Shown here one piece after another: positions 1,009 through 14,468 of a stretch of DNA of 21,876 bases (the first letter of the stretch is position 1; each line of letters starts with the position of its first letter). The notes beneath the pieces are model-generated. The model was not told the DNA's origin and made no database searches. It worked only from the letters and a program-made list of their open reading frames with translations. The translations under genes were made by a program, and so were the position numbers. The DNA is from a virus: positions 1 through 21,876 of the IMG/VR virus record IMGVR_UViG_3300006789_000210; one strand, 5' to 3'.

Positions 1009-2700
1009 TTACCTAATTGAATTAGCAAATGGGGACGCATAAGAGCTATATTGCGTTGGATATTGCGGCTGAACACTTCCATAAGATTGATATGCTGGTT
1101 GTTGCTGGTATTGTTGCGCCATTTGATAAGGTTGTTGATAAGGCTGCTGATAACTCGAATAATTGTTCGGGTAACCATAAGAGCTTCCGCCCATAATACC
1201 ACCACCATAATACAATTGTTGTTGCATTGGCGGTTGATAATAAGGCTGTTGATAAGACGGTTGTTGGTACCCTCCATAACCACCTCCATAACCACCAAAG
1301 CCTCCTTGAAAACCACCACCATAACCACTGCCGTAGCCTCCACCATAACCTCCGCCGTAGCCAAGTGGCTGCATATAATTTCTTCTTTGCTGTCTTTGCT
1401 GGTTAAACTGACCGTAAGCATCAGTGCCTTCGAAAGCTGATTGCAATCTTTGAAGCTCCGCTCTTTGTTCTTCAGTTGGACCTAAACTTTGTGCATATTG
1501 ATTATATGCCTTATATTCATCCGTATCAGTAACTGCTGTTCTGTACTGATCCATAGGTCTAACAAGAGGTCTTGAATAATTGTTCGGGTATTGCTGTCTG
1601 CTGCCCATGTATTGCTGAAACAACTGTCTTAACTGAGCGCCAAGTCCATCTCCCAAACTTCTGACGCCCGGAGTTGGCGTTGCGGGAGCTGAGTTTGTTG
1701 GAGGGGCAGTAGGATTAGCTGGCACTACTTCTGTGCCTGGAACTGTAGGATTTTCTTGTGGAGGTACAAATTCTGGCGCACCACTGTTATAAAAATCTAC
1801 ATATTTTTTGTATCTTTCACGGTATGCTTCATCTGATTCAGGCCCAAGTCCAGACACTGGTTGGCTCATTTTATAATCTTCAAAAGACATAACTTCAGAA
1901 GGACCTTCTTGCACCAAAGGTAGATCTACTTGCGTAGGGTCCATATCAGCGACTGGATCGGTAACAACTGGAGCAGCATCAGCAGATTTTATTCGGTCTA
2001 AATAAGCCTCGTATGCTCTATCTTGCGCTTTACCAATACTACCAGAACCGCCCATACCAAAGTAAGGGCTGTTATACATATCCATAGTTCCAATACCATT
2101 ACCTGCCGATAAATAATCTTGAAACTCTGGAGCGTCAAAAAAACCTGGATCAAGATCAGAATATTCTTCTTTAAGTTTTTGTGGATCTGGAGGCTCAGGA
2201 TTGAAAATTGGATTAACAATTGCTGGCTCAATTAGTGGGTTAATATATCCTGGGTCAGTTACTGGATCGGGCAATCCTCCATCTTTTTTAAGCTTCTCTA
2301 AAATTGAAAGACCAGGTGGTTCTATTGGAATACCCTGTTCTGATACAGCTGCAGATCCAATTCCTTGATCTATTGGGTCTTGAGTTGTAACCGGGTTTGC
2401 AGCTTCTTGTTGTGCTTGAACCTTCAAAGCTAAAGCCTCACGCATAGCGCTCATATAGTCACCGCCAGAAGCCATAAGCTCTTTAGCCTCTACCTCCTTG
2501 TCCAACGCTTGTTGCAATAAACTAGGTTGCGTTGTCGTTACAGGATCGGGATCGCTTTCTTTACTTAATGCTTCCTGATTAGCTAAAAAATCAGCCTTGT
2601 AGCCTTTGTACTTACGTTTTGCGTTCATTGCTGTTTGATTAGGATTTCTCCTTAATTCATCTTCAACAAAAGCTTGAAAACTAAGAGGTTCTTCAGCCAT
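1009..2700 (-). CDS. Large Pro-rich protein with a Gly/Tyr/Gln-rich prion-like C-terminus
   Basis: About 563 residues. I start it at the ATG at 2700 (MAEEPLSFQAF), which has SD GGAG 7 nt upstream; a farther in-frame ATG at 2760 has no SD and would add an implausible hydrophobic leader. Residues 1-70 are charged helix. A middle part is rich in Asp-Pro-Val repeats and prolines. The last 110-120 residues are low complexity: GGY/GGG repeats, then QQPY, YQQP and QQQ runs. I see no enzyme motif. Isolated phage genes with such composition are often virion or internal structural proteins, but that is inference. It runs opposite to the genes at 46-1008. Confidence 0.8.
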   Translation of the reverse strand: MAEEPLSFQAFVEDELRRNPNQTAMNAKRKYKGYKADFLANQEALSKESDPDPVTTTQPSLLQQALDKEVEAKELMASGGDYMSAMREALALKVQAQQEAANPVTTQDPIDQGIGSAAVSEQGIPIEPPGLSILEKLKKDGGLPDPVTDPGYINPLIEPAIVNPIFNPEPPDPQKLKEEYSDLDPGFFDAPEFQDYLSAGNGIGTMDMYNSPYFGMGGSGSIGKAQDRAYEAYLDRIKSADAAPVVTDPVADMDPTQVDLPLVQEGPSEVMSFEDYKMSQPVSGLGPESDEAYRERYKKYVDFYNSGAPEFVPPQENPTVPGTEVVPANPTAPPTNSAPATPTPGVRSLGDGLGAQLRQLFQQYMGSRQQYPNNYSRPLVRPMDQYRTAVTDTDEYKAYNQYAQSLGPTEEQRAELQRLQSAFEGTDAYGQFNQQRQQRRNYMQPLGYGGGYGGGYGSGYGGGFQGGFGGYGGGYGGYQQPSYQQPYYQPPMQQQLYYGGGIMGGSSYGYPNNYSSYQQPYQQPYQMAQQYQQQPAYQSYGSVQPQYPTQYSSYASPFANSIR

Positions 2701-2732
2701 AGTAGCGCTCCATAGTGATTTAACACCGACGA

Positions 2733-2760
2733 TATATAAAAAAATCCCGTAAATCAACAA
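2733..2760 (-). promoter_or_regulatory. Candidate promoter for the 1009-2700 gene
   Basis: On the minus strand there is TTGTTG, a 16-nt spacer containing a T-run, then TATATA, about 32 nt before the ATG at 2700. The position fits and nothing else in the 2701-2812 gap looks like a start signal, but the match to sigma-70 consensus is only fair. Confidence 0.35.
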
Positions 2761-2921: not shown

Positions 2922-3116
2922 TCACTTTGTGTTGAAATCAACACTAACTACGTTATCTAACTCTTTGTTCTCAGTCACAATAATCGTTCTGTGACCAGTT
3001 CCCTGGCAGTAATAACAACGATCTGTAATGTAAGCACCGATCCTATCATCGTACTCGGTATACAAACCTTTGCCCATACAGGAATGGCAGTTCTCACTTT
3101 CATCAACTACATTCAT
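2922..3116 (-). CDS. Small zinc-ribbon protein with two CxxCxGxG motifs
   Basis: 64 residues. Two DnaJ-type knuckles are visible, CHSCMGKG (Cys10, Cys13) and CYYCQGTG (Cys34, Cys37). Together they supply the four cysteines for one zinc ion, as in the DnaJ cysteine-rich domain and many small phage zinc fingers. There is no J-domain, so it is not a DnaJ; binding to protein or nucleic acid is the reasonable guess. The ATG overlaps the stop of the preceding gene as ATGA (3113-3116). It is the last gene of the leftward operon, ahead of the terminator at 2813-2853. Confidence 0.8.
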   Translation of the reverse strand: MNVVDESENCHSCMGKGLYTEYDDRIGAYITDRCYYCQGTGHRTIIVTENKELDNVVSVDFNTK

Positions 3117-3382
3117 TTAAAGCTCTCAGAGATAAAAAAGTTTAAAAAACTTTCTGTAATTGTTATTTTCTTTGGCTCAACAGGTTTTGAAGCTTTCTTC
3201 ATAACCTTCTTCATATCCTTAACCCAAGCACCACTATCTTTTAATTTATAAATAATATAATGCAACTGATTAGGCTCTAAACCTAGCTTCTTAGCTATGG
3301 CTTTGTTTGAAAGCTCACCTCGAAACGCAAGATCGTGCGCCTTATCAATTAACTTCTGGGGGTATTTAGATTTTATTTTCAT
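3113..3382 (-). CDS. Helix-turn-helix protein, paralogue 1
   Basis: 89 residues with strong SD AAAGGAGG 6 nt before the ATG at 3382; the start lies inside the end of the methyltransferase gene (17-nt overlap). Residues 8-47 form a homeodomain-like HTH (LAFRGELSNKAIAKKLGLEP, then a recognition helix). The C-terminus has a separate conserved tail, TITESFLNFFISESFK. Both parts recur in the protein at 4698-4952, so the two are paralogues. Such proteins usually bind DNA as small regulators or transposase-like HTH modules. Here a regulator of the operon or a partner of the methyltransferase is possible. Confidence 0.75.
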   Translation of the reverse strand: MKIKSKYPQKLIDKAHDLAFRGELSNKAIAKKLGLEPNQLHYIIYKLKDSGAWVKDMKKVMKKASKPVEPKKITITESFLNFFISESFK

Positions 3383-4496
3383 TGTCTTCCTCCTTTATTG
3401 CCAAGCCAATATTCATGGCAATTTGTGGCACAATTGCGTTGCCTAATCCTTTAATTCTGTCCACCCTTTTGGGTATCCCATGAGCCACTCTACGAACATT
3501 GGGTTCAACTGCCCACCAGTCTTCTCCTGATTGTCCGTATGTTGAACTGCCACGTCCAGACTGTCCCATGAAACTTTGCCGTTCCGAACCCGACCGCCCT
3601 GATAACCGCCCTTGTGATCCCTCGCCACTGGAGTTGGCCACATCTGCACTGCTTTGGTTAACCCAGCGCCTTTTCCCGTCTGTGGGTTGATTCCGCTCCT
3701 TTCCGTTGCCGTTGGTGTCGGCCACATTCTCTCTACATGGTTCACTGCGTCTCTCAGTTTCACGCCCCACCGAACTCCGTCCTTGTTCTTCCGACTGAAC
3801 GTTCCGTTCTCCAGTTCCACGTTCTGAACTATTCCGCCCTCCACGTCCGATGCTCTGGGTGTCGGCCATGTCTTGATGTAAAGATCCATCGTCTTTTCGT
3901 CCACTTGCTCCCGAAGATTGCTTGGTTTGGATCTGCCCTTGCGATGCCCCTCTTGCATCTTGCGTGTTGCTTCCTCGGATCTTTGAGGTAGATGATCCAT
4001 CGTGTTCGGCGTAGCCCACAATCCAGAGTCTGTCTCTTCTGTGGGGAGCGTTGACACCGCAAGCTGGAACAATAAACGTCCGTGTGGCGTAGCCTTCGCT
4101 TTCCAAGTCAGCGAGCACTTGGTCGAGACCCATTGCGATGTGACCATAAACGTTTTCGAAAACGCACCAAGTGGGTCTTTTGTGTGCAACAATTTTAAAG
4201 ATGTACGGCCAGATGTGGCGGTCATCTTCTGTGCCTTTTTGTAATCCAGCGACGGAGAATGGTTGGCACGGATATCCTGCTGTGAGGATGTCACAGTCTG
4301 GAACAAGTCTTTCTGGGTCATTAGCTAACTCCTTTACATCTGTAGCTATGGGTACATTTGGAAAATTCTTTGCGAGTATCTTACGACACCAAGGCTCGGT
4401 GTCGCAAAATAATATGGGGGTGGACAACTGTGCGCACTCAAAACCGAGGCTGAAGCCCCCGATCCCCGAACATAGATCAACGTGTCTGAGCATCAT
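3366..4496 (-). CDS. dcm: DNA (cytosine-5-)-methyltransferase
   Basis: 376 residues. It transfers a methyl group from S-adenosylmethionine to C5 of cytosine in DNA; in phages this usually protects the genome from host restriction. Family motifs in order: I DLCSGIGGFSLG (7-18), IV GYPCQPFS with catalytic Cys77, VI FENV (113-116), VIII PHRRDRLWIVG (151-161), X GLGNAIVPQIA (350-360). Residues about 166-326, where the target-recognition domain should lie, are instead low-complexity Gly/Ser/Arg/Gln with repeated ADT-x-GxG pieces. That stretch is read in another frame by the gene at 3443-4321. The start may be ATG 4496 or the adjacent ATG 4493, which has better SD spacing. It overlaps the upstream gene by 20 nt. 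Target sequence unknown. Confidence 0.92.
   Translation of the reverse strand: MMLRHVDLCSGIGGFSLGFECAQLSTPILFCDTEPWCRKILAKNFPNVPIATDVKELANDPERLVPDCDILTAGYPCQPFSVAGLQKGTEDDRHIWPYIFKIVAHKRPTWCVFENVYGHIAMGLDQVLADLESEGYATRTFIVPACGVNAPHRRDRLWIVGYAEHDGSSTSKIRGSNTQDARGASQGQIQTKQSSGASGRKDDGSLHQDMADTQSIGRGGRNSSERGTGERNVQSEEQGRSSVGRETERRSEPCRENVADTNGNGKERNQPTDGKRRWVNQSSADVANSSGEGSQGRLSGRSGSERQSFMGQSGRGSSTYGQSGEDWWAVEPNVRRVAHGIPKRVDRIKGLGNAIVPQIAMNIGLAIKEEDNENKI
3443..4321 (-). CDS. Overlapping gene inside the methyltransferase gene (WPTP-repeat protein)
   Basis: 292 codons on the same strand, shifted +1 and lying wholly inside the methyltransferase gene. It has its own SD, AAAGGAG, 7 nt before ATG 4321. 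The product looks like a real protein: four repeats of the type (L/T/M)W(A/P)TPxAxD (LWATPNTMD 101-109, TWPTPRASD 151-159, MWPTPTATE 199-207, MWPTPVARD 227-235), a segment LTWKAKATPHGRLLFQL (71-87), and a closing block GGQLNPMFVEWLMGYPKGWT (269-288). I recall these blocks from many phage proteins of unknown function, usually annotated near or within dcm genes. Where this frame is well patterned, the methyltransferase frame is low complexity, so selection seems to act here in the middle. Function unknown; a role in modification or target recognition is inference. Confidence 0.65.
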   Translation of the reverse strand: MTQKDLFQTVTSSQQDIRANHSPSLDYKKAQKMTATSGRTSLKLLHTKDPLGAFSKTFMVTSQWVSTKCSLTWKAKATPHGRLLFQLAVSTLPTEETDSGLWATPNTMDHLPQRSEEATRKMQEGHRKGRSKPSNLREQVDEKTMDLYIKTWPTPRASDVEGGIVQNVELENGTFSRKNKDGVRWGVKLRDAVNHVERMWPTPTATERSGINPQTGKGAGLTKAVQMWPTPVARDHKGGYQGGRVRNGKVSWDSLDVAVQHTDNQEKTGGQLNPMFVEWLMGYPKGWTELKD

Positions 4497-4701
4497 AATC
4501 CTCTGGAGTAATATCCATCCAATAAGGTTTGGTTATAAACTCTCTGGTGACAATACTGTTCTCAAGCGTATCTATAAACCTATGGTACGCAATCTCTTCA
4601 GCTTGCTCCAAGGTCTCCGCTTCAATCCCATCGTAATACCGAGAAACTAAATGCTCACAACAATTCTGGTTCATCTCTACTTTAATGTTCCACTCAGTCA
4701 T
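4477..4701 (-). CDS. Hypothetical protein, 74 aa
   Basis: A small acidic protein. A strand-like N-terminus (TEWNIKVEMNQNC) is followed by a Glu-rich helix (AETLEQAEEIAYHRFIDTLEN) and another short strand (EFITKPYWMDITPEDY). This order resembles the many small phage proteins of DpdA/DUF-like alpha/beta fold that I cannot name. The start ATG overlaps the previous gene as ATGA (4698-4701), and the end overlaps the methyltransferase start by 20 nt, so it sits between the HTH paralogue and the methyltransferase in one coupled group. Confidence 0.75.
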   Translation of the reverse strand: MTEWNIKVEMNQNCCEHLVSRYYDGIEAETLEQAEEIAYHRFIDTLENSIVTREFITKPYWMDITPEDYDAQTR

Positions 4702-4952
4702 CTAAAGTCCTCCGAAATAAAGAAGTCCAAGAAACTCTCCGTAATGGTAGGTTCTTTCTTGAGCTTCAATCCAGATGTCAAAACTGCGTGTAAGGATACA
4801 AAGGGATCAGAGTTTTTCTGTGTTCTTTGATAAAGAATATAATTCAACTGATTAGCCGTTAGCTTTAACTTCTTGGCTATAGCCTTGTTTGAAAGCTCAC
4901 CGTTAAACGCTAGGTCGTGAGCCTGATCAACTAATTTTTGTGAATGTTTCAT
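4698..4952 (-). CDS. Helix-turn-helix protein, paralogue 2
   Basis: 84 residues, a clear paralogue of 3113-3382. The HTH region is nearly the same (QKLVDQAHDLAFNGELSN and AIAKKLKLTANQLNYILY, residues 5-42) and it ends in the same tail type, TITESFLDFFISEDFR. The linker between the two conserved parts differs in length and sequence. ATGA overlap with the upstream gene (4949-4952) and with the downstream gene (4698-4701). The two copies flank the methyltransferase and the 74-residue gene, suggesting duplication around them. A DNA-binding role follows from the HTH; target unknown. Confidence 0.75.
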   Translation of the reverse strand: MKHSQKLVDQAHDLAFNGELSNKAIAKKLKLTANQLNYILYQRTQKNSDPFVSLHAVLTSGLKLKKEPTITESFLDFFISEDFR

Positions 4953-13386: not shown

Positions 13387-13537
13387 CAGCCTCACAGCCT
13401 CTCAGATCCTTGCAGATGTCCACAGGCTAGGGGTTACTTGGGGCAAGTGGGTCGGGTCATGGCTGCGGGCAGGCCCCTACACCCCCCTTAAAATCGGGCG
13501 CCCGCTTCCGTCCCGCCCTCCCACCCTAGATGAATAA

Positions 13538-13674
13538 ATTCATTTGGAGATATTTTCATTTGACCCCCCGCCCCTGTTCCCAGGATCGAGGTCCAGGAGT
13601 CCCTACCCCCAAAAATTATTGCAAATATATTTTCATTTGGGTATATATTGTTATAGGAGGATATTTTCATTTGG
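13538..13674 (+). repeat. Repeated ATATTTTCATTTG leader and candidate promoter before the PP-loop gene
   Basis: ATATTTTCATTTG occurs at 13550-13562, 13627-13639 and 13661-13673, with a shorter ATTCATTTGG at 13538-13547. The last copy contains the TTG start codon of the next gene, with AGGAGG before it; the first copy is preceded by GGAG. A candidate promoter, TTGCAA (13619-13624), 17 nt, TATATA, spans the second copy. Confidence 0.55.
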
Positions 13675-14468
13675 CCTATGAACTTCCAAAGGGAAATGTG
13701 TTGCTCTCGGTTAGTGGAGGGCGCACCAGCGGATATATGTTGCATAAGGTATTGGAGGCGAATGGTGGTTTACCAGATCGTTGTAAGGTTCTTTTTGCGA
13801 ACACGGGGCGCGAGATGCCAGAGACATTGGACTTTGTTCAACGGATCTCGGACACTTGGTCTGTTCCTATTACTTGGGTGGAATATACGCGGCGCGATAA
13901 CAAGGTTGGCTTTAATATTGTTAATCATAATTCTGCCAGTCGATCTGGTGAGCCTTTTGATACTTTGATCTATAAGCCTTATTTACCTAATGTTGCCAAG
14001 AGGTTTTGTACTGAGGAGCTAAAGGTACGCACGATGAAGCGTTATTTAGTGTCTTGTGGTTGGAAACGTTGGATTAATACGATTGGTATTCGAGCGGACG
14101 AGCGGCACAGGGTCAAAGAATCAAGGGACAACCGTTGGGTAAACTGGTATCCTTTGTACGAGGGCGGAGATACGAATGAAGATGTTATGTCTTTTTGGAA
14201 GCGTCATTCTTTTGATTTAGAGATTATGAAGGGTGCTGGTAATTGTGATGGTTGTTTTTTAAAGAGCGAGGCGACATTAGCTGCTATGTTCCGGGAGCAT
14301 CCTGATCGTATGGCGTGGTGGACGGCGATGGAGAAGAAGATTGGGACGACATTTCACAAGAGCCGTAGTTACTCGGACATTGGATCTTTTGTCGAGCGTC
14401 AAGGTTCTTTTATCTTTGACGATGAGTCTTTTCTTTGTCAGGCAGATGATGGGGAGTGCACGGGTTAA
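13671..14468 (+). CDS. PP-loop ATP pyrophosphatase, PAPS-reductase-like
   Basis: 265 residues from a TTG at 13671, with AGGAGG 10 nt upstream. An upstream ATG (13530) would add an implausible stretch translated from the repeats. The PP-loop SVSGGRTSG (residues 13-21) binds and cleaves ATP to an adenylate, as in PAPS reductases, DndC and tRNA-modifying enzymes. Further marks are Cys113 in KRFCTEELKVR, GIRADERHR (139-147), CDGC (Cys192, Cys195) and LFANTGRE. The two Cys sites fit the iron-sulfur or zinc-bearing phage relatives. Phage copies are common; their roles (sulfur metabolism, DNA or RNA thiolation) are uncertain. It starts the rightward morphogenesis operon and overlaps the next gene by one base. 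Confidence 0.75.
   Translation: MAYELPKGNVLLSVSGGRTSGYMLHKVLEANGGLPDRCKVLFANTGREMPETLDFVQRISDTWSVPITWVEYTRRDNKVGFNIVNHNSASRSGEPFDTLIYKPYLPNVAKRFCTEELKVRTMKRYLVSCGWKRWINTIGIRADERHRVKESRDNRWVNWYPLYEGGDTNEDVMSFWKRHSFDLEIMKGAGNCDGCFLKSEATLAAMFREHPDRMAWWTAMEKKIGTTFHKSRSYSDIGSFVERQGSFIFDDESFLCQADDGECTG

Follow-up and report, generated by a model that had tools for sequence, protein, structure and literature searches.

Two overlapping reading frames in a viral genome probably encode the two chains of one C5 cytosine methyltransferase

One locus in the virus record analyzed here (21,876 bases, all of which constitute the window) encodes, we conclude with considerable though not complete confidence, a single C5 cytosine methyltransferase composed of two chains that are specified by two overlapping reading frames. 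The α chain corresponds to an ORF of 376 codons on the minus strand (3366..4496), and the β chain to an ORF of 292 codons in the +1 frame of α (3443..4321, minus strand), the start of which is offset 175 nt downstream of the α start. The α chain would provide the catalytic domain, consisting of motifs I to VIII, an unstructured linker and motif X, and β, which has its own ribosome-binding site, would contribute the small domain that α lacks. The exchangeable WPTP cassettes of β, arranged in a row, would serve as target-recognition units, docked on α by the C-terminal motif IX of β. Together the two chains would methylate the phage DNA, which would most likely thereby escape host restriction, and exchange of cassettes would change which sites are protected. 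Sequence comparison establishes, as far as it can, that both frames are coding and constrained, that motifs IX and X are divided between the chains, and that cassettes are shuffled. The production of both chains and their binding to each other, the reading of DNA by the cassettes and the antirestriction role of the enzyme are inferred, without expression, binding or methylation data.

The original prediction held that a complete 292-codon gene lies hidden in the methyltransferase gene, and by every sequence measure applied that gene is real. All 50 representative homologues have an open +1 frame, where 0.0 open frames were expected after synonymous codons were redrawn, a procedure that predicted 11.1 stops per gene in that frame. 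For the gene in the window, a +1 open stretch of this length arose in none of 5000 codon permutations and in 1 of 5000 synonymous permutations. In 113 distinct homologues from viral contigs, retrieved with the α or β protein as query, no stop interrupts the +1 frame within the hidden ORF, and stops are frequent on either side of it. The predicted Shine-Dalgarno sequence AAAGGAG is present (4329..4335, minus strand) and ends 7 nt before the β ATG; a Shine-Dalgarno-like sequence is found at the β start in 95 of the 113 homologues against a background of 15%, and 97 of them have ATG as the first start codon and the others TTG or GTG. Random +1 stops in methyltransferase homologues would have refuted the prediction, and none was found across the hidden ORF in the homologue sets examined; variability of the +1 frame equal to that of noncoding frames would also have done so, and the hidden frame is instead strongly conserved.

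Selection was assessed in both frames by computing ω from 38 independent homologue pairs. In overlap region B (3525..3995, minus strand), where the β cassettes lie over the α linker, ω is 4.79 in the methyltransferase frame and 0.04 in the hidden frame. In region A (4002..4313, minus strand), where α motifs IV to VIII lie over the N-terminal part of β, the values are 0.22 and 0.78, and in region C they are 0.46 and 0.20. Outside the overlap the methyltransferase frame has ω of 0.04 and, beyond the overlap end, 0.02, and the +1 frame has 4.5 to 6.3; values above 1 are here a sign that the other frame is constrained and do not denote positive selection. For the hidden frame in region A, 0.78 does not by itself fall below 1, yet it is far under the 4.5 to 6.3 observed outside the overlap, and both frames appear to be constrained there, to judge from these substitution patterns. 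On either side of the overlap, close homologue pairs show the pattern of a normal gene, codon position 3 of the methyltransferase being the most variable. Within region B (residues 166-326), position 1, which is position 3 of the hidden frame, is the most variable (0.128 versus 0.036 and 0.025), and the skew recurs among more distant relatives (49 pairs; 0.26, 0.133 and 0.139). Codon-position variation and ω thus both support the earlier proposal that two proteins share one segment and are constrained in different parts of it, with the refinement that the hidden frame also overlaps methyltransferase motifs IV to VIII. Residues 166-326 of the methyltransferase, previously singled out as low in complexity and unlike a normal target-recognition domain, are indeed anomalous, and moreover, by ω, are without constraint of their own.

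The α chain meets the membership test for C5 methyltransferases, possessing motifs I, IV (PCQ), VI (ENV), VIII and X, and matches PF00145 (E=4e-39). Residues P76, C77, Q78, E114, N115, V116, G352 and N353 are invariant in 61 homologues. The AF2 model is confident in the core of motifs I to VIII and in the motif X helix and of very low confidence between them, with pLDDT mostly below 50 for residues 171-340; it superposes on M.HhaI, the letters of which were verified against the PDB, with a Z score of 21.5 over 208 aligned residues. The motif X region RIKGLGNAIVPQIA (3417..3458, minus strand) lies at and beyond the overlap end, where α has its ω of 0.02. Neither a recognition domain nor a canonical motif IX was found in α itself: region B is unconstrained by ω and disordered in the model, and VEPNVRRVAHGIPKRVDR stands in place of motif IX. 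The chain models as an M.HhaI-like catalytic domain with motif X and a disordered linker where the recognition domain would be expected. On both sides of the methyltransferase gene are short paralogous ORFs (3113-3382 and 4698-4952, minus strand) that are alike in an ELSNKAIAKKL segment and a TITESFL end, one of which has weak Pfam matches to helix-turn-helix families. Elsewhere, the window contains an ORF with a PAPS-reductase domain (13530-14468, plus strand; PF01507, E=4.5e-7) and a long ORF (1009-2760, minus strand) whose C-terminal part is of low complexity and rich in Gly, Tyr and Gln.

The β chain contains the four WPTP-type repeats and the ending GGQLNPMFVEWLMGYP that had been read from the sequence. 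The cassettes, all on the minus strand, begin with WATPNTMD (3869..4018), WPTPRASD (3725..3868), WPTPTATE (3641..3724) and WPTPVARD (3518..3640), and are followed by the motif IX-like end GGQLNPMFVEWLMGYPKGWTE (3455..3517, minus strand), which aligns with the motif IX stretch of M.HhaI, residues 271-291. A profile of chains that possess both an IX-like end and motif X aligns with M.HhaI 273-308 (P=1.5e-4 for that single comparison). These alignments are short and the hhalign probabilities are low (12.6% for β alone and 51% for the IX-X chains), so the motif IX assignment owes as much to position and pattern as to score. Residues 3-210 of β match phrog_1008 (E=1.2e-35), a family labeled "DNA methyltransferase" that is also matched by relatives of the hidden protein; the label hides the fact that these proteins lack catalytic motifs I to VIII and are mostly encoded in the +1 frame over the catalytic gene. 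No Pfam or NCBIfam family is matched by β, and no Pfam match better than chance was obtained for six further hidden-frame relatives. The AF2 model of β alone is poor (mean pLDDT 55.7) and gave no significant Foldseek match, and a β profile search of solved structures returned only chance matches.

Hidden proteins of the close family contain one to seven cassettes, most commonly three, with a median length of 42 residues and the WPTP-type motif first. The 365 cassettes form 81 clusters and are arranged in 61 architectures. Several clusters recur at differing positions; cassettes have moved between positions and between proteins. By analogy, such shuffling resembles the exchange of recognition domains. 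An equivalence of the WPTP motif with the TL motif of C5 recognition domains, which is given in PMC2413257, was considered and rejected: the strict pattern fails in the 365 cassettes, none of which contains the TL core P[STCA]PT[ILV][TASV]. With the TL motif absent, the designation of the cassettes as recognition units is only inferred, from position and shuffling.

The same arrangement is found in many phages, often with just one of the two frames annotated. The 245 distinct loci compared come from phages, viral contigs, plasmids and draft genomes. In 238 of them the motif IX-like end lies in the +1 frame of the catalytic part, in 7 it shares the catalytic frame, and in none is it in the +2 frame; in two loci (L190 and L290) the in-frame motif IX may reflect indels in draft contigs, and no weight is placed on it. 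Of the 238 +1 loci, 214 have motif X in frame 0 only, 17 in the +1 frame only, 7 in neither and none in both. Most of the 245 loci were retrieved with hidden-frame queries, so the ratio of 238 to 7 is not an unbiased survey of C5 methyltransferases; that bias does not explain the absence of +2 cases or the exclusive placement of motif X. In mycobacteriophages such as Alberto7, motif X is found in the +1 chain, and in Gordonia and Rhodococcus phages both IX and X are in α, with the cassettes still in the +1 frame. The isolated mycobacteriophage Fancypants encodes motifs I to VIII, cassettes, IX and X in one frame as a single chain, which matches both phrog_116 and phrog_1008. These alternative forms indicate that the two frames are complementary parts of one enzyme. 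In Paenibacillus phages both frames are annotated as methyltransferases, and in the E. coli phage K1ind2 as a methylase and an "Mte8-like protein"; the overlap is not discussed in the papers found on these phages, and searches of open-access papers, a scope that leaves out most subscription papers, gave no prior description of it. In the Rhodococcus phage ReT1v-1 (1471-2700), the methyltransferase frame is long and uninterrupted across the region and four cassettes lie in +1, yet the record annotates only a "hypothetical protein" (1763-2437) and a short methyltransferase fragment (2515-2667). Two other loci (L098 and L108) have a second hidden-frame set of cassette and motif IX-like end downstream of the methyltransferase ORF end, as though by partial duplication of the pair.

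Because the +1 ORF overlaps a conserved gene, it might be supposed to be open merely by chance, as a by-product of coding for the methyltransferase. That supposition, to which we attach practically no credence, is already refuted by the openness of all 50 representatives where none was expected, by the contrast in ω between the frames (0.04 against 4.79), and by ordinary phage C5 methyltransferases, those of RB43 and of streptococcal phages, whose +1 frame contains 9 to 21 stops. It is also unlikely that programmed ribosomal frameshifting after motif VIII joins the frames into one fused enzyme rather than two chains. The continuous chain of some relatives, such as Fancypants, is consistent with it, as is the Alberto7 locus, where the first ORF stops just beyond motif VIII and the remainder is encoded by the second, in +1. 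However, the hidden ORF in the clade of the window locus has its own conserved start and Shine-Dalgarno sequence upstream of motif IV and is open through motifs IV to VIII, and a fused product would need neither; in addition, the motif X end of α remains constrained (ω 0.02) after the overlap.

That β is a phage protein in its own right, perhaps an inhibitor or an adaptor, and overlaps the methyltransferase only incidentally is very unlikely. The lack of a predicted known fold for β alone would fit such a protein, and cassette shuffling would also fit a multitarget inhibitor, but the motif IX alignment of β, the exclusive partition of motif X and the single-chain form in Fancypants all argue otherwise, and no β without a methyltransferase was found in loci long enough to show one. 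The two-chain enzyme has points against it as well, namely the poor AF2 model of β, the missing TL motif, the ω of 0.78 for β in region A and the weak hhalign scores. Of the two roles originally suggested for the hidden protein, that of a specificity partner is well supported by the motif IX alignment, the single-chain relative and the occurrence of motif X in one chain or the other but never both, and that of an unrelated phage defense factor is not supported. That the partner sets specificity is still an inference.

The small gene of M.EcoHK31I (YGGCCR) sits in another frame inside the large gene, and by motif layout, without sequence comparison, this enzyme is the closest precedent for the two-chain methyltransferase proposed here. 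Its large chain comprises motifs I to VIII and X, with a predicted recognition domain, and its small chain comprises motif IX (PMC3404938). The same split is seen here in the alignment of the β end with M.HhaI 271-291 and in the 214 of 238 loci with X in frame 0 and the IX-like end in +1, but the candidate recognition units here are cassettes of the small chain rather than a domain of the large one. An EcoHK31I-like restriction-modification locus was sought in E. coli and in plasmids, and the regions inspected were prophage or phage-like. M.AquI (CYCGRG) is a two-subunit C5 enzyme with the catalytic motifs on one side of the split and IX-X on the other (PMC3404938). Mycobacteriophage loci that carry IX and X in the second chain resemble it, whereas the window locus retains motif X in α and its chains overlap over most of their length. 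The multispecific C5 methyltransferases of Bacillus phages have several exchangeable recognition segments in one protein; unlike the cassettes described here, which are in another frame and without a TL motif, those segments belong to a single chain with TL motifs. Multispecific C5 enzymes and domain swaps are cited in PMC2413257. What is new relative to these precedents is the breadth of the arrangement, the evidence from selection and the shuffling of cassettes.

The locus provides a clear example, with selection quantified in each frame, of a long gene overlapping another on the same strand in DNA phages, and it unites two annotation families in a single enzyme. In many of the genomes concerned just one frame is annotated, so methylation specificity predicted from that gene would leave out of account the chain that probably determines it. 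The cassettes make specificity directly testable through swapping. On balance, we lean toward the view that these loci represent a large and mostly unrecognized class of phage methyltransferases with a shuffled cassette array in the +1 frame, in which each cassette would have its own DNA target and recombination between cassettes would change the methylation pattern while leaving the catalytic half unaltered.
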